Shown: positions 1 to 10,201 of the stretch, in pieces
How the letters are laid out: the number at the start of each line of letters is the position of its first letter
Position numbering within the stretch: position 1 is the stretch's first letter
Assembly: GCA_027347545.1 (NCBI GenBank)
Contig: DAIEQT010000159.1
Span: 1-10,201, forward strand
Direction of reading: 5' to 3'
Length of the DNA: 10,201 nt
Source of the DNA: Ignavibacteria bacterium
GTDB lineage: Bacteria; Bacteroidota; Ignavibacteria; Ignavibacteriales; Melioribacteraceae
The notes under the pieces: generated by a model
What the model saw: only the letters and a program-made list of their open reading frames with translations
Databases searched by the model: none
Told to the model about the DNA's origin: nothing
Position numbers and translations under genes: made by a program

Positions 1-59
1 CTAAGAACCCAACCACAAATATATTTTTGGTTTAGCTTGCTCAACCGCCTTACTAATAT

Positions 60-132
60 TTAGCGAATTTCCACTTGTTGAAAAATCAGAAGTTTCCGTC
101 GTTATTCAACTGCAGTGGTGAAGGCTTGCTAA
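60..132. repeat. Imperfect inverted repeat with attC-like flanking heptamers
   Basis: Left-arm blocks TTAGC (60-64), CCACT (71-75) and GTTGAA (77-82) are matched in order by TTCAAC (105-110), AGTGG (114-118) and GCTAA (128-132). This gives a roughly 73-base interrupted hairpin with a 22-base loop. Just outside it lie GCTCAAC (39-45) and GTTAAAC (141-147). These fit the RYYYAAC and GTTRRRY core consensus of integron attC sites, and 109 bases is within the attC size range. Against attC, the spacers on the two sides are unequal (13 versus 8 bases) and the inner L boxes fit poorly. No integrase or cassette gene is visible. It could equally be a dispersed palindromic repeat or a leader RNA structure. 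Confidence 0.35.
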
Positions 133-183
133 CTTGTGTTGTTAAACGAAAGACAAATTCAGCAAAAAAGTGTTTTTCAAAGT

Positions 184-214
184 TTGTAAAATATTCCTAT
201 TTTTGATTTGTAAT
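184..214 (+). promoter_or_regulatory. Possible promoter for the operon
   Basis: Two overlapping promoter-like patterns occur here. One is TATTTTTG at 198-205, which fits the TAnnTTTG -7 element of Bacteroidota, although no TTG sits at the proper distance upstream. The other is a sigma70-type pair, TTGTAA (184-189) and TGTAAT (209-214), with a long 19-base spacer. Either would leave a leader of more than 200 bases before panB. The DNA is AT-rich enough for such matches to arise by chance, and a second TATTTTTG lies at 22-29. This is a weak prediction based only on position and motif. Confidence 0.2.
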
Positions 215-412
215 TAGAGAATCGATCTGCATTAGCGGACGGTTACTTTCTTGAAATTAAATTGTCATATGGACTTGATCTTTAGGACAGGTACCAAAAA
301 CATGAAAAACTTTATCTGCCTATTCTTAATAGAAACAATTTCTTCCTACCAGAGCTTCCGGTTTAAGCTATGTTCATATTGCTATAGTAATGTTGACCAC
401 GCATCAGCTTTA

Positions 413-438
413 AAATATCATAGCTACATGAGATATTT
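413..438 (+). promoter_or_regulatory. AT-rich hairpin abutting the panB start codon
   Basis: AAATATC (413-419) and GATATTT (432-438) form a perfect 7-base inverted repeat with a 12-base loop, and the right arm ends immediately before the ATG at 439. There is no Shine-Dalgarno-like sequence in this interval. If it forms in RNA, the stem would cover the region where the ribosome lands. With one G-C pair it is weak, and chance is a fair alternative. Confidence 0.25.
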
Positions 439-1230
439 ATGAAATCAATCCACGAGTTTCATAAATATAAAGCAGCTCATAAGAAGATATCCGTTGTAAC
501 TTGCTATGATTACACTTCAGCGAAAATTGTGAATGACAGTGACGTTGATGCTGTGCTTGTTGGTGACAGCTCCGCAATGGTGATGCATGGTTTTGAAAAT
601 ACCGTATTTGCCAATCTTGATATGATGTGTTACCATGTTAACGCGGTCAAGCGCGGACTCAATGAAAAATTAATAATTGCCGATCTACCATTTCTTGAAC
701 ACAAAAAAGGAATTAAAAATACTTTTACTTCAATTGATAAATTGATGAAATGCGGCGCCCATGCTATAAAAATAGAAGGCGCCATCGGTAATTTAGAAAT
801 CATCAAAAAGATTTCAGAAGCCGGCGTTCGAATTATGGGGCATCTGGGACTCACTCCTCAGTCCATCTATCATCTTGGCGGTTACAAAGTACAAGGTAAA
901 GAAAGCAAAGAGGCTGAGTTACTAATTAAACATTCTATCGAACTACAAGAAGCCGGATGCTTTGCAATTGTACTCGAGCTTATTCCCGAAGATTTAGCCG
1001 GAGAGATTACAGATAAGTTATCTATTCCTACAATAGGAATTGGCGCCGGCGCTAAAACTGATGGACAAGTATTAGTGCTGCAAGATCTGCTTGGAATGGA
1101 TAAAGATTTCAACCCGAAATTTGCCAGAAAATATTTTAACGGTTACGAAACAATTCTAAATGCACTTAATAAATTTAATGAAGATGTAAAGCAATCAGAT
1201 TTTCCAAACGCATCCGAGAGCTTCCAATGA
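439..1230 (+). CDS. panB: Ketopantoate hydroxymethyltransferase (PanB)
   Basis: PanB transfers a hydroxymethyl group from 5,10-methylenetetrahydrofolate to 2-oxoisovalerate, giving ketopantoate, the first committed step of pantothenate synthesis in the cytoplasm. The 263-residue product matches the family's usual length. Visible motifs are VGDS at 41-44 (metal ligand D43 and substrate-binding S44), ADLPF at 81-85 (metal ligand D82), KIEG at 111-114 (K111, E113), GHLGLTPQS at 134-142 (H135), VLE at 178-180 (catalytic base E180), GIGAG at 200-204 and the C-terminal PKFA with a final FP-ESF signature. All expected catalytic positions are present. It is the first gene of the operon. The ATG at 439 has no clear ribosome binding site but gives the canonical N-terminus. 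Its TGA overlaps the panC ATG (ATGA at 1227-1230), implying translational coupling. Confidence 0.97.
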   Translation: MKSIHEFHKYKAAHKKISVVTCYDYTSAKIVNDSDVDAVLVGDSSAMVMHGFENTVFANLDMMCYHVNAVKRGLNEKLIIADLPFLEHKKGIKNTFTSIDKLMKCGAHAIKIEGAIGNLEIIKKISEAGVRIMGHLGLTPQSIYHLGGYKVQGKESKEAELLIKHSIELQEAGCFAIVLELIPEDLAGEITDKLSIPTIGIGAGAKTDGQVLVLQDLLGMDKDFNPKFARKYFNGYETILNALNKFNEDVKQSDFPNASESFQ

Positions 1231-1991
1231 TTAGACAGGTAACAAGCATAGATGAAATAAAATATTTAACAAAGACTTTCCATTCCAAAAAGAAGAGTGT
1301 TGGATTTGTCCCTACAATGGGAGCTTTACATGCCGGGCACGAATCGTTGTTAAAAAAATCTGTTTCGGAAAATGATATTACAGTTGCAAGCATTTTTGTA
1401 AATCGAACACAGTTTAACGATCCAGACGATTATAAAAATTACCCGAGAACCATCGAGAATGATTTGCATGTACTGGAGAAAGCTGGTGTGGATATTTTGT
1501 TCCTACCTAAATATGAAGAAATCTATAACGACGATTATAGATACAGAGTCATCGAAAATTCATTGAGCAAAATTCTTTGCGGCAGTTCCCGCCCAGGTCA
1601 TTTTGAAGGCGTCTTAACAATTGTTCTGAAACTTTTGAATATAGTCTCGCCAGCCAAAGCTTATTTCGGCGAGAAAGACTATCAACAATATTTATTGATT
1701 GACGGAATGTGCAAAGCTTTGTTTATGGATGTGGAAATTATCCCATGCCCAACAGTGCGCGAGAAAGATGGACTTGCAATGAGCAGCCGCAACTTGCTGC
1801 TTACTTCTGACGAAAGAAAAACCGCTCCAAACTTTTCGAAAGTATTAAGAAATGCGAAAAGCGCTGCGTTAGCTAAAGCCCGGCTTGAGGAGTTAGGTTT
1901 TAAAGTTGATTACGTTGAAGATTTGTACAAGAGAAGATTTGCTGCTGCTTTTTTAGGAAAAGTGAGGTTGATAGACAATGTCCAAATTTAA
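1227..1991 (+). CDS. panC: Pantothenate synthetase (PanC), shortened C-terminal domain
   Basis: PanC is the ATP-dependent ligase that joins pantoate and beta-alanine through a pantoyl-adenylate. The Rossmann domain has PTMGALHAGH at 29-38 (the HIGH-like nucleotide motif, H35 and H38), FVNRTQF at 57-63, SRPGHFEGV at 121-129, GEKDYQQ at 148-154 and the KMSKS-equivalent MSSRN at 185-189. The C-terminal domain keeps [16 protein letters not shown] near 236-251. The protein has 254 residues where about 280 is usual. The missing stretch lies between about residues 205 and 228, the helical part of the small domain, while the frame is open throughout. A further oddity is Arg60 where FVNPTQF is normal. 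The ATG overlaps the panB stop by four bases and is preceded by GAGAG. Its 3' end overlaps coaBC by 14 bases. The identity is certain; whether the shortening affects activity is unknown. Confidence 0.96.
   Translation: MIRQVTSIDEIKYLTKTFHSKKKSVGFVPTMGALHAGHESLLKKSVSENDITVASIFVNRTQFNDPDDYKNYPRTIENDLHVLEKAGVDILFLPKYEEIYNDDYRYRVIENSLSKILCGSSRPGHFEGVLTIVLKLLNIVSPAKAYFGEKDYQQYLLIDGMCKALFMDVEIIPCPTVREKDGLAMSSRNLLLTSDERKTAPNFSKVLRNAKSAALAKARLEELGFKVDYVEDLYKRRFAAAFLGKVRLIDNVQI
1964..1967 (+). promoter_or_regulatory. Ribosome binding site of coaBC
   Basis: GAGG lies ten bases before the coaBC ATG and inside the panC reading frame. It fits a moderate Shine-Dalgarno site and supports the start at 1978 despite the 14-base overlap with panC. 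Confidence 0.55.
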
Positions 1992-3222
1992 TGTTTTGTT
2001 TAAGGTTACCGGTTCAATTGCTGCGTACAAGTCAGCATACATTATTTCCAGACTTGTTCAATCCGGATGTAATGTAAAAGTTGTTGCTTCCGAATCTGCA
2101 CTAAAGTTTATTGGAACAGCTACGTTAGAAGGACTTTCCGGCAATCCGGTTTATACGGACTCTTTCGCCCCGGCACAAGTTATGAGTCACATTCATTTGG
2201 CGCAGTGGGCTGATGTTACAATAGTAGCTCCGGCAACAGCAAATACAATAAACAAATTTACAAATGGAATTTCAGATAGTCTTCTTACCTCACTCTTTTT
2301 AGCACATGATTGGTCAAAGCCATATTTGATAGCTCCCGCAATGAATTCCAAAATGTATTCTCATCCGGCAACACAACTATCTTTAAGCAAACTAAAGAGT
2401 TGGGGCGTAACAATTCTTCCTACAGAAGTTGGTTACTTAGCTTGCGGCGATGTTGGCGAAGGTAAAATGCTCAATCCGGATTTAATTTTTGACGAAGTGA
2501 TGAAAGCTTATGCTTCAAAAAATAAATCCGTTACAAAAAAGATAATACTTATCACTTACGGCGGAACTGCGGAAGACATTGACGGTGTGAGATTTATCTC
2601 AAATATGAGTACCGGCAAAACCGGCGCTGCAATAGCAGAAGAACTTTTTTTAGGCGGGAATGAAATCACAACCTTGCGTGCAAGAAACTCGTTTGAAACT
2701 AAATTTAATGTCGAAAGTAAAGTGTTCTCTTCATTTGAAGATTACCGCGTTAAGATTGAGAAATTGCTAGCGGAGAAACACTTTGACGTGATTATTCACC
2801 TGGCTGCATTGAGCGATTATTCCCCCGCGTTCTTGGAAAAAGACAACAACACGTTTCCGCTTCCTCTGCAAAGTAAGTTGGCGTCAGACTCAGACAACAT
2901 TAAAATCATGTTCAAAAAGAATGTAAAGGTTATTAATTCTCTTAAAAGATTATCCAAGAATCCTAATGTAATTGTGATTGGTTTTAAGCTTACAAATCAG
3001 GTCGAAGAAAGTGATATACCCAATATTATTAAGAAGATGTTTGCGGATTCAGACATAGATTATGCAGTGCACAACGATCTTTCCAGCAGGACTTTTTCTG
3101 ACGAACAAACAAATTTTACCGTTTACGATAAAGTTCTAAACACAACAAAGTGCGTTAGCGTTTTAGACTTAGCAAAAGAAATTGATAAAATAATGGAGAT
3201 AAAAAATGATATTGTGCATTGA
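1978..3222 (+). CDS. coaBC: Bifunctional phosphopantothenoylcysteine decarboxylase / phosphopantothenate-cysteine ligase (CoaBC, Dfp)
   Basis: The C-terminal CoaB half joins 4'-phosphopantothenate to cysteine using CTP, and the N-terminal FMN-dependent CoaC half decarboxylates the product to 4'-phosphopantetheine. CoaC (about residues 1-175) shows VTGSIAAYK at 10-18, HIHLAQWAD at 71-79 (catalytic His71), APATANT at 84-90, the substrate-clamp PAMN at 120-123 and ACGD at 155-158 (catalytic Cys156). CoaB (about 185-405) shows GGTAEDID at 195-202, FISNMSTGK at 206-214, a LAALSDYSP segment at 275-283 corresponding to the usual AAVADY, a lysine at 300 near the position of the catalytic CoaB lysine, and VIGFKLTN at 333-340. 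Its 414 residues are normal for the fusion. It overlaps panC by 14 bases and coaX by 17. Its place among pantothenate genes fits the next steps toward CoA. Confidence 0.95.
3195..3198 (+). promoter_or_regulatory. Ribosome binding site of coaX
   Basis: GGAG is followed by seven A/T bases and then the ATG at 3206. It is the best Shine-Dalgarno match in the window and fixes the coaX start inside the 3' end of coaBC. Confidence 0.65.
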
Positions 3223-3994
3223 TGTTGGCAATTCGCAAATCCACGGCGGAGTTTTTAGCGGTGGTGAATTAACGGTACAATTTCGCAAAACTTCGAGACA
3301 GCAATTTTCATCCGATGAAATAGGTTTGTTTCTCAAAACTGTTTTACGGGAAAATAATGTTGACCCGGACAGCATCAGTGGAATTTCAATTTGCAGTGTG
3401 GTTCCGGATCTAAATCATTCTATTAGAAACGGCTGCATCAAATACTTTAGAATAGAACCGTTCTTCTTAAAAGCCGGTGTTAAAACCGGATTGAAAATAA
3501 AATACCGAAATCCTCTTGAGGTTGGAACAGATAGAATTGCTAACGCAATTGCGGCTACAACTCTCTTCCCAAACAAAAATTTGATTGTTGTTGATTTTGG
3601 AACAGCCACAACATTCTGTGTTATCAGTAAAACCAAAGATTATTTAGGCGGTATAATTCTTCCTGGCATCCGAATCTCGATGGAGGTTTTGGAATCGAAA
3701 GCCGCGCAGTTACCGAGTGTAGAAATTAAAAAACCGGAAACATCCGTCGGTAGATCAACTATCGAAAGTATTCAATCCGGTTTATTCTTCGGGCAGGTTG
3801 GAATCGTAAAAGAAATCAAAGCGAGAATTATTTCCGAAGCATTTAAGGATGAAGACCCGTTTGTAATTGGTACAGGAGGATTTTCAAGTTTATTTGAAGA
3901 CGAAGGTCTATTCAATTTAATCTTACCAACATTAGCACTCAAGGGGCTTTATACGGCTTACAATCTAAACCAATCAACGGAAAGAGATGCGTGA
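3206..3994 (+). CDS. coaX: Type III pantothenate kinase (CoaX)
   Basis: CoaX phosphorylates pantothenate to 4'-phosphopantothenate, the entry step of CoA synthesis. It is an ASKHA-fold enzyme that, unlike the type I kinase CoaA, is known as a family to be insensitive to CoA feedback and to need a monovalent cation. The N-terminal phosphate loop DVGNS is at 6-10, GTDRI at 107-111 contains the catalytic Asp109 (family motif GADR/GTDR), DFGTATT at 130-136 is the second phosphate motif and GGIILPG at 148-154 is the substrate lid motif. The C-terminal TGG (223-225) is the last ATP-site glycine motif. At 262 residues it is full length. It starts within coaBC, and its TGA (3992-3994) shares one base with the panD ATG. 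In this order, CoaX acts between PanC and CoaBC. Confidence 0.95.
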
Positions 3995-4350
3995 TGTTTA
4001 GAGTAATGCTCAAATCGAAAATTCACAAAGCTACTGTAACCGGAAGCGATTTGAATTATGAGGGTTCCATAGCAATTGATAAATCACTTTGCGAAAAAGC
4101 CAACTTATTAGAGTTCGAAAAAGTTGATATATACAACGTTAACAACGGCAGCCGTTTTTCGACTTATGTTATTTACGGCGGCGAAGGTGAGGTTACTCTT
4201 AACGGCGCGGCAGCAAGGCTTGTACAAGCCGGAGATAAAATAATTATCGCCTGCTACTCAATGTTCAATGAAGCTGAAATAAAGAAACATAAACCTATCG
4301 TTCTGATTTTGGATTCATCAAATTCTGTTTTACAAAAGGATGTTAAGTAA
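3994..4350 (+). CDS. panD: Aspartate 1-decarboxylase proenzyme (PanD)
   Basis: PanD decarboxylates L-aspartate to beta-alanine for PanC. It is made as an inactive chain that cleaves itself between Gly24 and Ser25, leaving a pyruvoyl cofactor on the new alpha subunit. Counting from the ATG at 3994, YEGS at 22-25 holds the cleavage site, Lys9 (in MLKSKIH), Arg54, Thr57 and Tyr58 fall at their standard numbers, and NGAAAR is at 70-75. This exact match in numbering is why I prefer this ATG over the GTG one codon upstream at 3991, which would add one Met. The chain is 118 residues, normal for the bacterial enzyme. A purine-rich GGAAAGAG at 3979-3986 can serve as ribosome binding site. The gene is followed after 12 bases by nadB, another aspartate-consuming enzyme. 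Confidence 0.96.
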   Translation: MFRVMLKSKIHKATVTGSDLNYEGSIAIDKSLCEKANLLEFEKVDIYNVNNGSRFSTYVIYGGEGEVTLNGAAARLVQAGDKIIIACYSMFNEAEIKKHKPIVLILDSSNSVLQKDVK

Positions 4351-4362
4351 AAAATATTCAAC

Positions 4363-5952
4363 ATGAGTAATATGAACAGAGGAAGGTATTTCGATTTTAT
4401 TATTGTAGGACAAGGTTTAGCCGGTTTAGCCGCGGCTTATTTTGCTTCCCGGCATGGCACTGTTGCTTTGGTATCTAAAGGGAATTCTAGAATCAGCAAT
4501 TCTTATCTGGCGCAAGGCGGAATTGCTTCTGCTATTTCACCTGATGATTCTATTAAGCTGCACTATAAGGACACGATTACAGTTGGAAAGAATCTTTGTG
4601 ATAAAAAAGCAGTTAAAATGTTAGTTACTGAAGGTAGAAGTATCATAAAAGAAATTATTTCTCTAGGAATGAAATTCGATAGAAACAATTCTGAATTGGA
4701 TATCAGTCTGGAAGGTGGTCATTCAAGAAGAAGAGTTCTACACGCTAACGGAAGTTCTACCGGAAAGGAATTGGTTAAATTTTTCCTCGATCTTACTGCA
4801 CAACAGAAAAACATTACTCGCTTCACCAACTCTTATCTTTATGAACTGTTAGTTAAAGACGGTATTGCTCACGGAGCATTATTTTTCAATCCCAAAAAGC
4901 TGAAAAGTTTTCGTTTACTTTCCAATAGAACCATAATTGCATCGGGCGGACTCGCCGGGATTTATCATAAATCAACCAATCCATTTTCAACTTCCGGGGA
5001 TGGAATTGCTGCGGCTTACAATGCCGGTGCTGCAATTGAGAATATTGAGTTCATTCAATTTCATCCAACTGCATTGAATAAGAAAAACTGTCCGCCGTTT
5101 TTATTAAGCGAGGCGATGCGCGGTGAAGGCGCAGTTTTGGTTGACCGCCGGGGAAAAAGAATTTTCGATAATGGTGAACTAACAGAACTTTCTCCGAGAG
5201 ATGAATTAAGCAAAGCTATTCATCAATACCTAAGAGCCGGAAAGAATAGAAATATTTATTTAAGTCTATCATCCATTGAAAAAGATGTAATCAAAAGAAA
5301 GTTTTCCTATATCAGTAACGAACTGATGAAATACGATATTGATATAATCACTTCCGGCATTCCGGTTGCGCCCGCAGCGCATTACACAGTTGGCGGAATT
5401 AAAACCGGACTGTTTGGTGAAACAAATATCACCGGACTATATGCAATTGGTGAAGCTGCTTCTACCGGAGTTCACGGCGCAAACAGATTGGCGAGCAATT
5501 CTTTGTTGGAATGTTTGGTCTTTGCAAAACAGTGCGTGCTGCATAGCTGTAAATTATCTTTTGCAACAAGACCAATTGAGTTAGATGCTGCGACATGTTT
5601 AACTATTGATGACAAAAATGAGAATATTTTCCAGAAAGTAAGAGAGCAGATTGCAAAAATACTTTGGGAAGATGTTGGAATAATTAGAAATGCATCCTCT
5701 CTGAATAGCGCGAAAGAAAAACTTATTAAACTGCAAAACAAATATTCCGGCTCCGGCAATGAATATTATCTAATACAAATACAAAATTTGATACAGCTTG
5801 CTTTGCTGATAACTAACGGAGCCCTTGCGCGCAAAGAGAGCCGCGGCTGTCACATTCGCGGCGATTATCCACACCAGAGTAAAAAATTCGAACACAATTC
5901 TTGTCAGATAAAGAAACAGAGTACTCAACTCATTGTAAGGCGCGACAAATGA
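4363..5952 (+). CDS. nadB: L-aspartate oxidase (NadB)
   Basis: NadB is an FAD enzyme that oxidises L-aspartate to iminoaspartate, the first step of de novo NAD synthesis, using oxygen or fumarate as acceptor. It belongs to the succinate dehydrogenase/fumarate reductase flavoprotein family. The sequence has the dinucleotide-binding VGQGLAG at 15-21, SYLAQGGIA at 47-55, EGGHSRRRVLHANG at 117-130, HPTAL at 234-238, LSEAMRGEGA at 248-257, HYTVGGI at 340-346 and GEAASTGVHGANRLASNSLLE at 363-383. A helical C-terminal domain ends in the family signature ESRG--IRGDYP. Length, 529 residues, is normal. The ATG at 4363 lacks a clear ribosome binding site; a second in-frame ATG at 4372 is possible and would lose only three residues. 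The TGA overlaps the nadC ATG as ATGA. Confidence 0.96.
   Translation: MSNMNRGRYFDFIIVGQGLAGLAAAYFASRHGTVALVSKGNSRISNSYLAQGGIASAISPDDSIKLHYKDTITVGKNLCDKKAVKMLVTEGRSIIKEIISLGMKFDRNNSELDISLEGGHSRRRVLHANGSSTGKELVKFFLDLTAQQKNITRFTNSYLYELLVKDGIAHGALFFNPKKLKSFRLLSNRTIIASGGLAGIYHKSTNPFSTSGDGIAAAYNAGAAIENIEFIQFHPTALNKKNCPPFLLSEAMRGEGAVLVDRRGKRIFDNGELTELSPRDELSKAIHQYLRAGKNRNIYLSLSSIEKDVIKRKFSYISNELMKYDIDIITSGIPVAPAAHYTVGGIKTGLFGETNITGLYAIGEAASTGVHGANRLASNSLLECLVFAKQCVLHSCKLSFATRPIELDAATCLTIDDKNENIFQKVREQIAKILWEDVGIIRNASSLNSAKEKLIKLQNKYSGSGNEYYLIQIQNLIQLALLITNGALARKESRGCHIRGDYPHQSKKFEHNSCQIKKQSTQLIVRRDK
5936..5940 (+). promoter_or_regulatory. Ribosome binding site of nadC
   Basis: TAAGG lies eight bases before the ATG at 5949, inside the nadB reading frame. 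It supports that ATG as the start, rather than the in-frame TTG at 5901. Confidence 0.5.
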
Positions 5953-6797
5953 AATTGTCTCCGGATGTTAAACAGTTAATTCTATTAGCTCTGAAAGAAG
6001 ATATTGGCAAGTGCGATATAACTTCGGAATTGATTGTCCCGGAAAATTACGTAGGGAGCGCTTCCATAATTGCAAAAGAAGCCGGAGTAATTTGCGGGCT
6101 GCAAATAGCTTATCAAATTTGCAAAACGATTGATAAGAAATTGTCATTCGTTGCATTATCGAAAGATGGCAACCATGTATCTTCCACTCAAAAAATTGCT
6201 GTAATTAATGGTTCCCTCAAATCACTTCTGACAGCAGAAAGAACTATTCTCAACTTTCTCCAAAGAATGTCCGGCATAGCAAGCGAGACAAATAAATATG
6301 TTACCGCGTTGAAAGGAACTAAGACAAAACTTCTAGATACACGAAAAACTGCGCCGGGACATAGAGTTTTAGATAAGTACGCGGTTAAGATAGGCGGCGG
6401 AGTTAATCACCGCGTTGGTTTATTTGATATGATATTGATTAAGGAAAACCATATCGCCGCTGCCGGAAGTATTACAGATGCAGTAAAACGAGCTACTACA
6501 AATAAACCGAAGCGCATGAAGGTTGAAGTGGAGGTTTCTAATCTGCAAGAAGTTGAAGAGGCGCTCGCGCAAAAAGTTGATATCATTATGCTCGATAACA
6601 TGAATGCCGGTCAGATAAAAAAATCTCTTCACGTAATTAAAGGCAAATGCAAGACCGAAGCCTCCGGCGGTATTACTCTAAAAAACATTCGTCAAATAGC
6701 TAAGACAGGTGTGGATTATATTTCTGTTGGAGCAATAACGCATTCAGTTAAGGCGCTTGATATTGCAATGTACATTCAACAAACAAAAAAGAAATGA
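5949..6797 (+). CDS. nadC: Nicotinate-nucleotide pyrophosphorylase, carboxylating (quinolinate phosphoribosyltransferase, NadC)
   Basis: NadC transfers the phosphoribosyl group of PRPP to quinolinate and decarboxylates it, giving nicotinate mononucleotide. From the ATG at 5949 the protein has 282 residues, the normal size. The N-terminal domain has [11 protein letters not shown] at 16-26 and [16 protein letters not shown] at 96-111. The TIM-barrel part has [11 protein letters not shown] at 129-139 (quinolinate/PRPP-binding Arg and Lys), [14 protein letters not shown] at 142-155, [10 protein letters not shown] at 160-169, EVEV at 193-196, IMLDNM at 213-218, EASGGI at 237-242 and [10 protein letters not shown] at 257-266. 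All expected active-site segments are intact. The reading frame extends upstream to a TTG at 5901, but the ATG forms an ATGA overlap with the nadB stop and gives the canonical N-terminus. It is translationally coupled to nadB. Confidence 0.97.
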
Positions 6798-6804
6798 AAT
6801 TTTC

Positions 6805-7740
6805 ATGAAAGATATTGTTCAAGAAATAGAAAAACTAAAACTCGCTAAAAACGCGGTGATACTTGCTCACAATTATCAGCCGGCGGAGATACAAGATATA
6901 GCGGATTATGTTGGTGATTCGCTGGGGCTATCCCAGCAAGCGGCAAAAACCGATGCTTCAATAATTATTTTTTGCGGTGTACATTTTATGGCTGAAACTG
7001 CTTCGATTATTTCTCCCGGGAAACGGGTGTTGCTTCCAAACTTAGATGCGGGATGTTCATTAGCGTCATCAATTACGGCAGCGCAATTGAGAGAATGGAA
7101 AAGTCAGCATCCGAAAGCGGTTGTAGTTTCTTATGTTAATACATCGGCAGAGATAAAAGCATAAAGCGATTACTGCTGCACTTCTTCCAATGCAGCTAAA
7201 GTAGTTTCATCAATTCCGCTTGATAGAGAAATTTTATTTCTGCCCGATAGACATCTGGGAAGATATGTTCAAGCCGTTCTTAACAGGCCGTTAAAAATTT
7301 GGAATGGCTCTTGCCATGTTCACGAAAAAATTGGCGATATTGATTTTGGCTTAGCCCAGGCGCAATATCCCAATGCGGAATTTTTGATTCATCCGGAATG
7401 TGGCTGTTCTTCTTCTTGCATGCTAAAAGCAGAAATTTATTTTGACTGCAAAGGGATACACATGCTTTCAACAGATGGAATGATTAATTACGTGGAGAAA
7501 TCCGATGCAAAAGAGTTTGTGATTGCTACCGAAGTTGGAATACTTCACCGGCTGAAAAAAGTAAAACCGCAAGCTTCGTTTTATCCATTAAGCGAAAACG
7601 CTGTTTGCGAATACATGAAGATGATAAGTCTGGAACAACTTCGCGATGCGCTCTACTATGAACGTTACGAAGTAAAAGTTCCGGATGAAGTTGCAGAAAA
7701 AGCCAGACTTCCAATTCGGCGGATGCTTGAGCTTACTTAA
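6805..7740 (+). pseudogene. nadA: Quinolinate synthase A (NadA) interrupted by an in-frame TAA at codon 120
   Basis: NadA condenses iminoaspartate from NadB with dihydroxyacetone phosphate to form quinolinate, using a [4Fe-4S] cluster held by three cysteines. The frame from ATG 6805 to TAA 7738-7740 is 311 codons, the usual size. It is read in one frame throughout except for a TAA at 7162-7164 directly after the conserved segment NTSAEIKA; homologues commonly have Glu there (GAA to TAA is one base change). Both sides are well conserved: AHNYQP at 21-26, AGCSLA at 82-87 (Cys84), CCTSSN at 124-129, LPDRHLGRYVQ at 146-156, WNGSCHVHE at 166-174 (Cys170), HPECGC at 196-201 and ENAVCEYMKM at 264-273 (Cys268). 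Cys84, Cys170 and Cys268 match the known ligand spacing. The 119-residue fragment alone would lack two ligands. The ATG is chosen over upstream codons because it gives the standard N-terminus. Certain as nadA; uncertain whether functional. Confidence 0.93.
7162..7164 (+). other. Premature TAA within nadA
   Basis: This codon interrupts nadA after residue 119, and the same frame continues without another stop to 7738. The context is TAA followed by A, an efficient termination context in bacteria. TAA is also the normal terminator of panC, panD, ribD and ribE in this window, so a genetic code reassigning TAA is excluded. No start codon with a ribosome site lies soon after it to make a second fragment. 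Confidence 0.9.
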
Positions 7741-7759
7741 CAATTAGATTGGTATAGTT

Positions 7760-8857
7760 ATGTTTGGTTCAATTGATGAAAAATATATGAAGCAATGCTT
7801 TGAGCTTGCTCAAAATGGTGCCGGATATGTTAGCCCAAATCCATTAGTTGGCTGTGTTATTGTTAAAGATGATAAAATTCTCTCTACCGGTTATCATGAG
7901 AAATATGGTTCGTTCCATGCTGAACGAAATGCGATTTTGAATTCTGAGCAGGATATTTCCGGCGCAACTTTGTATTGCAACTTAGAGCCATGTATGCACA
8001 CAGATAAGCAAACTCCCCCATGCGCGCAGCTAATCATTTCCAGCAAAATTAAACGCGTTGTAATTTCTACCGTTGATTCTAATCCAAAAGTAAATGGAAA
8101 CGGTATTAAACTTCTGAGAGAAGCCGGCATAGAAGTAACAACAAGCGTTTTGGGAAAAGAAGGAAGAGAGCTAAACAAGTTTTTCTTCACGAGTATGGAG
8201 ACCGGTTTTCCTTACGTTACTCTTAAGTTGGCAGTTTCGCGTGATTGGAAGATTACCGGCGAGAAGGGAAAGCAAACCTGGCTCACCGGAAATGAATCGA
8301 AGAAATTTGTACACGAACAACGCTCTGTTTACGATGCTGTTCTTGTTGGCGCAAACACAGTAAACATTGATAATCCGCAACTTACCGTTCGGGATGTGGA
8401 TGGAAAAAATCCCAAGCGGATAATTCTTGATGGAAATCTTTCTGCCAATTTAGAATCCGCTCTCTTCGCAGATTCTTCCAACAGGAATATTGTTTTCTGT
8501 TCAAACAGTGCAGATGAAAAACGTAAGAGCGCTTTCAGAGAAATGGGCGTTACATTAATTGAGCTTGAGCTTGTTAGAGATTCTTTGCTTGACTTATCTG
8601 ATATGTTAAGGAAAATCTCTTCTCTAAAGATAAACTCCGTGCTTGTAGAAGGAGGCGCCCAGATTTTCACTCAATTCATAGAGCAAGGACTGTTTGACGA
8701 ATTGTTTATCCTTATGGCACCAGTACATTTAGGAACCGGTGTTGATGTTATTCCGGCTGATGAAATAGAGAATTTAGAACTGATAAAAGAAACAAACTTG
8801 GGTAAAGACATTTTATTTCATTATAAGCACAAGAGAGAAAAATGTTTACAGGACTAA
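7760..8857 (+). CDS. ribD: Bifunctional riboflavin biosynthesis deaminase/reductase (RibD)
   Basis: RibD deaminates the pyrimidine ring of 2,5-diamino-6-ribosylamino-4-pyrimidinone phosphate and then reduces the ribose side chain with NADPH, the second and third steps of riboflavin synthesis. The N-terminal zinc deaminase domain (about 1-145) has NPLVGCVIVKD at 27-37, HAE at 53-55 (zinc His53, catalytic Glu55) and EPCMHTDKQTPPC at 76-88 (zinc Cys78 and Cys87). The C-terminal reductase domain (about 148-360) has YVTLKLA at 152-158, DNPQLTVR at 204-211, RIILDG at 220-225 and VEGGAQI at 296-302. At 365 residues it is full length. The usual SLDGK/R motif reads SRDWK at 160-164, keeping the Asp. 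It begins 19 bases after nadA with no clear ribosome site, and no FMN riboswitch fits in that gap. It overlaps ribE by 16 bases. Confidence 0.95.
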   Translation: MFGSIDEKYMKQCFELAQNGAGYVSPNPLVGCVIVKDDKILSTGYHEKYGSFHAERNAILNSEQDISGATLYCNLEPCMHTDKQTPPCAQLIISSKIKRVVISTVDSNPKVNGNGIKLLREAGIEVTTSVLGKEGRELNKFFFTSMETGFPYVTLKLAVSRDWKITGEKGKQTWLTGNESKKFVHEQRSVYDAVLVGANTVNIDNPQLTVRDVDGKNPKRIILDGNLSANLESALFADSSNRNIVFCSNSADEKRKSAFREMGVTLIELELVRDSLLDLSDMLRKISSLKINSVLVEGGAQIFTQFIEQGLFDELFILMAPVHLGTGVDVIPADEIENLELIKETNLGKDILFHYKHKREKCLQD

Positions 8858-9483
8858 TTGAAGAGGTTGGCAAAATATCATCTGTAAGACAAGCCAACGG
8901 CAAATTAGAATTAGAAATTTCCGCAAATAAAATTACGGGCTCACTTAAAACCGGAGATTCAATTTCGGTTAACGGTGTATGTCTTACCGTAACTAAGTTT
9001 TCAACCGGCAAATTTTGTGTTGATGCCGTTAGCGAGACATTAAAGAAGAGTACAATAGGAAATCTGAGAATTGGAACGGAAGTTAATCTTGAACCGGCAC
9101 TGCAACTCTCTCAAAAACTTGGCGGTCATTTGGTACAAGGTCATGTAAACGATGTTGGAACAATTACAGAAATTAAAAAGCTTGGTGAAAATTATTTGCT
9201 CTACCTCTCACTTCCCTATCACCTAGAGAAATATTTAATCAAAGAAGGCTCTATAGCTATTGATGGAATTAGTCTAACAATCGCGGATGTGTCGGCAAAT
9301 AAAGTAATGTTTTCAATTATTCCCCACACGTGGAAAAACACAAACCTCCGGGCAAGAAAGCAGGGCGATCATGTAAATATTGAGATAGATGTTATTTCAA
9401 AGTATGTGGAAAAGTTTTCAAATAATACACCGGGGAACAAGAACGAATTAAGCGAAGAATGGTTAACCAAATTGGGTTATTAA
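8842..9483 (+). CDS. ribE: Riboflavin synthase, alpha chain (RibE)
   Basis: This enzyme dismutates two molecules of 6,7-dimethyl-8-ribityllumazine into riboflavin and the pyrimidinedione, the last step of riboflavin synthesis, and acts as a homotrimer. The product has the two tandem lumazine-binding barrels of the family. Barrel one starts with MFTGLIEEVG (1-10) and has GDSISVNGVCLTV at 38-50 and SETLKKSTIG at 64-73. Barrel two starts near 93 with LGGHLVQGHVNDVG, and has GSIAIDGISLTI at 136-147 and IPHTWKNTNL at 160-169. The barrel-one and barrel-two GxSxxxxGxxLT motifs show the internal repeat directly. The 213 residues are normal length. The second barrel reads HVNDVG where HVDG-G is common. 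A GAGAG lies six bases before the ATG, which sits inside ribD. In some nomenclatures this gene is called ribC or risA. Confidence 0.95.
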   Translation: MFTGLIEEVGKISSVRQANGKLELEISANKITGSLKTGDSISVNGVCLTVTKFSTGKFCVDAVSETLKKSTIGNLRIGTEVNLEPALQLSQKLGGHLVQGHVNDVGTITEIKKLGENYLLYLSLPYHLEKYLIKEGSIAIDGISLTIADVSANKVMFSIIPHTWKNTNLRARKQGDHVNIEIDVISKYVEKFSNNTPGNKNELSEEWLTKLGY

Positions 9484-9484
9484 A

Positions 9485-10201
9485 ATGAATGAACAACAAT
9501 CAAATTTTACAAAGAAATTAAGTACGATTGAAGCTGCTGTTGAAGATATCAGAAATGGAAAGATGGTAATTGTTATTGATGATGCCGACCGGGAAAATGA
9601 AGGAGATTTAATTGCTGCTGCCGAGCTTATTACTACAGAGCAAATTAATTTTATAACACGTGAAGCAAGAGGAATACTTTGTGTCTCTGTAACCGAACAG
9701 CGCGCTAAAGAACTTGAACTGGAATTAATGGTTGACAACAATACATCGCTTCATCAAACGCCGTTTACTGTTTCCATTGATTATATACATGGGACGACAA
9801 CCGGTGTTTCAACTTATGACCGAACAGCTACAATAAAAGCCATCGTGAATAATGAAGCCAGCCCAAGTGATTTTGCGAGACCGGGTCATATCTTTCCTTT
9901 AATAGCTAGGAAAGGTGGAGTGTTAAAACGTGCGGGACACACAGAAGCCGCCATAGATATTGTTTCATTAGCCGGATTAAAACCAGCCGGAGTTCTTTGC
10001 GAAATTCTATATGAAGATGGAACTATGGCGCGGCTGCCGCAGCTTATTGATTTCGCTGAGAAATTTGGTTTTAAAATAATTTCGATTGCGGATTTAATTG
10101 AATACCGCCGAAAGAGAGAAAAACTTGTTAAGTGCAAAACGGTGATTGATTTACCAACTAATTACGGCGTGTTCAAACTTCGTCTTTACGAAAATCTTCT
10201 T
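9485..10201 (+). CDS. ribBA: RibBA, 3,4-dihydroxy-2-butanone-4-phosphate synthase / GTP cyclohydrolase II, 3' end outside window
   Basis: RibB converts ribulose 5-phosphate to 3,4-dihydroxy-2-butanone 4-phosphate, and RibA opens GTP; both feed riboflavin synthesis. The frame from ATG 9485 is open to the right edge, giving 239 residues. The RibB domain is complete (about 10-212): DDADRENEGDL at 32-42 (metal and substrate acidic loop), ARGILC at 61-66, HQTPFTVSIDY at 90-100, GVSTYDRTATIKAI at 107-120, RPGHIFPL at 132-139, RAGHTEAAIDI at 149-159 and EDGTMARLPQL at 177-187. After it, LPTNYGVFKLRLY at 223-235 is the start of a GTP cyclohydrolase II domain, which shows this is the fused form cut by the window end. 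It follows the ribE stop by one base. There is no clear ribosome site, so coupling to ribE is likely. Confidence 0.95.
   Translation, partial: MNEQQSNFTKKLSTIEAAVEDIRNGKMVIVIDDADRENEGDLIAAAELITTEQINFITREARGILCVSVTEQRAKELELELMVDNNTSLHQTPFTVSIDYIHGTTTGVSTYDRTATIKAIVNNEASPSDFARPGHIFPLIARKGGVLKRAGHTEAAIDIVSLAGLKPAGVLCEILYEDGTMARLPQLIDFAEKFGFKIISIADLIEYRRKREKLVKCKTVIDLPTNYGVFKLRLYENLL

Follow-up and report, generated by a model that had tools for sequence, protein, structure and literature searches.

A single in-frame stop codon interrupts an otherwise intact quinolinate synthase gene, nadA, in a draft Ignavibacteria genome and, as far as the sequence comparisons reach, is private to the contig that carries it. 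We put at somewhat better than even the chance that this TAA is an error, or the base of a minority strain, in the consensus, and that the nadA of the population is intact. The gene lies within a cluster of vitamin and cofactor genes, beside nadB and nadC, and both of its halves appear to be under constraint.

The cofactor gene cluster

The window, i.e. the whole stretch of DNA analysed, is an entire contig of 10,201 bases (G000:C103), on which the genes are arranged panB-panC-coaBC-coaX-panD-nadB-nadC-nadA-ribD-ribE-ribBA, all on the + strand. The features are as follows (G001 is a relative of the same genus):

439–4350, + strand: panB, panC, coaBC, coaX and panD, all open; an NCBIfam match over the cut-off for each, and the same order in G001
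4363–5952, + strand: nadB, L-aspartate oxidase, intact; TIGR00551, 496.7 bits, over the cut-off, without internal stop
5949–6797, + strand: nadC, nicotinate-nucleotide diphosphorylase, intact, with its ATG at 5949; TIGR00078, 327.8 bits, over the cut-off, without internal stop
6805–7161, + strand: first part of nadA, 119 codons ahead of the stop; NF006878 and TIGR00550, profile positions 4–121, with Cys84 aligned to a cysteine of solved NadA
7162–7164, + strand: in-frame TAA, nadA codon 120; all 116 aligned loci have a sense codon here
7165–7740, + strand: second part of nadA, 191 codons and the terminal TAA; NF006878, profile positions 123–304, with Cys170 and Cys268
7760–10201, + strand: ribD, ribE and ribBA, all open, ribBA running off the contig; matches over the cut-off for ribE and for the ribB domain of ribBA, ribD via the database protein P0121, order as in G001

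The start of nadC is that of the database protein P0241, which begins at the same ATG, and ribD was assigned by the Pfam domains of P0121, a protein identical to its product. The adjacency of nadC and nadA recurs in G001 and in 12 of 30 short loci from relatives. Upstream of panB (window 1–438) no gene was recognised, only a 63-codon TTG frame being listed. A shortened panC (254 aa) was considered as a second lesion and rejected, as G001 aligns across all 254 residues.

The corresponding pan-coa-nad-rib locus in another member of the genus, G004, has a decayed appearance (locus L038, G004:C2:103000–112745, at approximately 5900–9300). There, panC gives a partial match, coaBC, coaX and panD are without a match and by eye amount to short pieces, and nadB survives as a remnant containing a stop; matches persist for panB, nadA and the rib genes. 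The same genome carries a second nadB-nadC-nadA set on another contig, G004:C7.

One stop codon in an unbroken frame

Translation of 6805–7740 gives a single + strand frame of 311 codons, open except for the TAA at codon 120 and ending in a second TAA at 7738–7740. In the first half, residues 2–119 match positions 4–121 of NCBIfam NF006878 (quinolinate synthase NadA) with 193.1 bits, and in the second half, residues 1–190 of that part match positions 123–304 with 199.9 bits. The two halves thus abut at profile positions 121 and 123 with one position absent, so that a single codon interrupts nadA and the frame is otherwise unbroken. Read across the stop, the gene matches PF02445 over positions 1–295 (384.2 bits, E = 3.2e-115), a match that is not due to chance, and neither translation nor the profile matches of the halves revealed a second premature stop or a frameshift within 6805–7740.

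The predicted product contains ten cysteines, including those at 84, 170 and 268, which in two alignments coincide with cysteines of solved quinolinate synthases and which we take to be the ligands of a 4Fe-4S cluster. In its full-length match in one reading frame, its three cysteines and its adjoining nadC, the gene is like quinolinate synthase NadA (TIGR00550, NF006878, PF02445), but its coding sequence is interrupted at codon 120 by a stop absent from every locus compared.

Relative to G001, dN/dS is 0.070 for the 5' part of nadA and 0.107 for the 3' part, and 0.058–0.159 across nine further window genes (a set without panB, which is cut by the compared stretch of G001). Both halves therefore appear as constrained as their neighbours, and nadA carries neither of the looked-for signs of an older pseudogene, relaxed constraint or further lesions; if real, the stop would be recent. 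A mosaic nadA in G003, hinted at by uneven identities, was not borne out by DNA alignment.

Codon 120 in relatives and homologues

Across 116 aligned nadA loci, a set in which a few genomes are counted twice, codon 120 encodes Glu in 92 (40 GAA, 52 GAG), Leu in 21, Met in two and Gln in one, and is a stop in none. Among homologous proteins, residue 120 is Glu in 118 and Leu in two of the best 120 of 8,000 scored candidates. These proteins were used for residue 120 alone, and the stop counts rest on DNA comparisons: an internal stop would be invisible in a protein record, and a piece of 119 residues falls short of the length needed to appear as a candidate. A profile search that reads through stops found no internal stop in 45 strong nadA matches of relatives. 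The sole other stop-bearing match of that search, in G048, is weak (26.9 bits, with a TAA), and its translation is not NadA-like by eye, so nadA was counted as absent from that genome. None of the relatives searched has a nadA split by a stop; that of G002 is in two pieces, but these lie at contig ends.

The nearest among the proteins listed, P0001, is identical to the window NadA at 308 of 311 positions, the differences being residues 4, 5 and 120, the last of which is Glu in P0001 and the stop in the window. P0001 is encoded on another contig, of 3,569 bases, and may come from the same or from another population or strain. G001 likewise has Glu at codon 120 and shares the gene order of the window, and the named near relatives among the proteins listed include Ignavibacteria, one of them labelled Stygiobacter sp.

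A preliminary description of the window, made from its letters alone, had reported one 311-codon frame with TAA at codon 120, cysteines 84, 170 and 268 preserved, Glu as the usual residue at the interrupted position and no progress of decay. The frame and the cysteines are borne out by translation, by the profile matches of the halves and by alignment to solved NadA, and the dN/dS values, within the range of the neighbours, agree with the lack of decay. Glu is indeed usual, most strongly so in near relatives, but is not strictly conserved.

The draft genome and a census of broken genes

The genome, G000, is a draft of 2.71 Mb in 530 contigs, with 75.23% completeness and 4.49% contamination. 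In a census of broken genes, G001 proteins from about 1.13 Mb were compared with 44 of the genome's own contigs plus the window (60 of the 530 were taken, and 16 masked ones dropped). This yielded 66 orthologue-like alignments (at least 65% identity, 21,707 aa, window genes included) with two in-frame stops and no frameshifts. One of the stops is that of nadA. The other falls at alignment position 33 of a G001 frame of 851 residues, ahead of an ATG that both genomes share; by eye it was judged to reflect a G001 frame extended too far at its start, and was rejected as a lesion. With 0 of 65 genes other than nadA broken (95% upper bound approximately 4.5%), the census argues against both gross error and widespread decay, though it would probably miss a small number of consensus errors or genuine mutations across the whole genome.

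In the reverse direction, 189 of the genome's own frames were placed on G001, giving 53 alignments and two flags near N-termini: the window nadC frame, whose start had been set too far upstream, and a second frame, flagged at alignment positions 18–19. A stop census by codon usage alone proposed seven candidates in G000 and one in G001, which by eye look like adjacent gene pairs, and missed nadA itself; it was set aside as too insensitive. A mis-binned contig was also rejected as the cause of the stop, as the composition of the window fits the bin: its tetranucleotide distance to the pool of the genome's own contigs, 0.095, lies within the 0.075–0.164 of 19 unmasked own contigs longer than 5 kb (themselves in the pool).

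NAD biosynthesis in the genome and its relatives

In de novo NAD synthesis, NadA forms quinolinate from dihydroxyacetone phosphate and the iminoaspartate supplied by NadB, and quinolinate then passes to NadC. G000 has one nadA, intact nadB and nadC, and also nadD and nadE. Within the approximately 75% of the genome represented, there is no match to PF04095 or TIGR01513 (nicotinate/nicotinamide phosphoribosyltransferase) or to PF04973 (PnuC). With one nadA and no salvage or PnuC match, a true nadA null would leave no visible NAD route. This absence is weak evidence, since each of the two phosphoribosyltransferase families failed in some genomes where the other gave a match, and about a quarter of G000, in which salvage genes may lie, is missing. 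The literature search found no papers on NAD biosynthesis in Stygiobacter or the Melioribacteraceae, and none on premature stop codons, or on errors, in metagenome-assembled genomes.

Of the 57 relatives compared, 42 carry nadA, nadB and nadC, 14 are without all three, and G043 combines nadA and nadB with no nadC match. That genome, at 99% completeness, also gives no match to nadE, which points to gaps or to an altered NAD pathway. In none of the 57 is a missing nadA combined with a nadB or nadC over the family cut-off, the level at which these two genes were counted; a nadB-like match of 371 bits in G037 (below 452.75) and a nadC-like match of 18.9 bits in G016 were accordingly left out. A nadA null with nadB and nadC kept is an unseen state, as expected of an artefact or of a short-lived stage. 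Six of the 14 relatives without the trio have a phosphoribosyltransferase match, against 12 of the 43 that carry nadA; no clear link emerges.

The relatives without nadA, nadB and nadC include G005, of the same genus as the window. Eight of the 14 (G005, G007, G010, G014, G016, G017, G029 and G032), six of which are at least 90% complete, are also without a NAPRT/NAMPT family or PnuC match. In these eight, nadD is over the cut-off throughout and nadE in seven, G016 having a partial nadE match. Their NAD precursor route must lie outside the families searched, unless the genes concerned are in unassembled parts.

Origin of the stop

If the TAA is an error or a minority-strain base, it would be a single-base peculiarity of one contig in a fragmentary draft genome, and the nadA of the population would encode an ordinary quinolinate synthase within the pan-coa-nad-rib cluster. 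This reading is favoured because of the near-identical uninterrupted protein P0001, the soundness of nadB and nadC and the failure to detect a salvage route. The census weighs against it, as the bin is not full of breaks, and so do the compositional fit of the window to the bin, the chance that salvage genes lie in the missing quarter and the chance that P0001 comes from another strain. We infer that the base is missing from most cells, whereas the stop in the contig, the constraint on the rest of the gene, the lack of any locus sharing the stop and the near-identical protein with a sense residue were observed directly.

A real and recent nonsense allele is a serious contender, to which we give a little under even chances. 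The strain would then be naturally auxotrophic for an NAD precursor, or would belong to a mixed population, and would be fed by neighbours or the medium; the rest of the gene would have had no time to decay. Such an allele would account for a change isolated in sound sequence, and the loss of de novo NAD genes has precedent in the 14 relatives, the same-genus G005 among them; eight of these also give no NAPRT/NAMPT or PnuC match, which suggests that the family may use an unrecognised precursor route. Auxotrophy through a natural nadA point mutation is known, moreover, from Escherichia coli NC101 (PMC8207962). On the other side stand the almost identical protein with a sense residue, the half-lost state, seen in none of the 57 relatives, and the salvage and uptake families tested, without a match in about 75% of the genome. 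A stronger version, in which the stop is real and nearly fixed, we consider improbable; it would place the lineage at the first step of de novo NAD loss, with a precursor route independent of PncB/NAMPT or PnuC, as in the relatives without nadABC (e.g. G005).

Translation past the TAA, whether through a suppressor tRNA, recoding or leaky termination, yielding small amounts of full-length NadA, is very unlikely. It would explain why both halves are conserved, but a recent origin of the stop suffices for that, and the stop is kept in none of the 116 compared loci. No TTA anticodon was found among 18 tRNA genes (called by ARAGORN at 19 tRNA places, in an incomplete genome from which several tRNAs must be missing), and no Rfam element reaches the gathering score in the window. 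TAA is the commonest terminator: in the contigs examined it closes 71 of the 118 stop-to-stop frames that span 250 codons or more and end within a contig.

Least credible of all is that the halves form a split enzyme, or that the first part has a new function: beyond the existence of two open parts nothing speaks for it, the presumed cluster ligands would be divided (Cys84 in one part, Cys170 and Cys268 in the other), none of the relatives searched has a nadA split by a stop, and the 46 codons scanned after the stop (before 7300) contain no in-frame ATG, GTG or TTG, the second nadA ORF starting at 7384 in the mechanical ORF list.

The preliminary description had offered a fresh auxotroph, an assembly or sequencing error and low-level read-through as explanations. 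Error is the best supported of the three, though not proven. For the auxotroph, the undecayed gene is as proposed, but the salvage phosphoribosyltransferases and PnuC are without a match in the approximately 75% of the genome at hand, and none of 57 relatives shows a loss of nadA alongside a retained nadB and nadC. Read-through loses ground on the tRNA genes, on the frequency of TAA as terminator and on the compared loci. Its suggestion that TAA in several genomes would support a real event or read-through was followed up, and the codon was found in none of the 116 loci; its proposed search of the genome yielded one nadA only, with no second copy, and, within the portion assembled, no phosphoribosyltransferase or PnuC gene.

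Comparison with known NAD auxotrophs

If real, the stop would be of an already known kind, judging by analogy with two published cases. In E. coli NC101 (PMC8207962), a natural strain, one missense base change in nadA makes the cell dependent on nicotinic acid. The single base change in a natural nadA is common to both, but NC101 has a missense allele with tested growth, whereas the window has a stop in a draft genome, and NC101 uses nicotinic acid, for which no enzyme was found in the approximately 75% of G000 represented. In Clostridium septicum, nadB and nadC are reported to be broken by stop codons, with nadA intact, in four strains (PMC8513740). This resembles the present case in having nonsense changes in the de novo NAD set while part of the set is intact, but other genes are hit there, and in four strains, as against nadA in a single contig.

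Whether an error or a rare recent mutation, the nadA stop is an ordinary occurrence that matters little on its own. Confined as it is to a single draft contig, and with an almost identical intact protein on record, it calls for read support before a true auxotrophy is annotated. A genuine stop would offer a snapshot of the loss of de novo NAD synthesis, a process seen only in its completed form in the relatives (14 of 57). The more useful question is posed by the eight relatives that are without nadABC and also without the salvage and uptake families searched.
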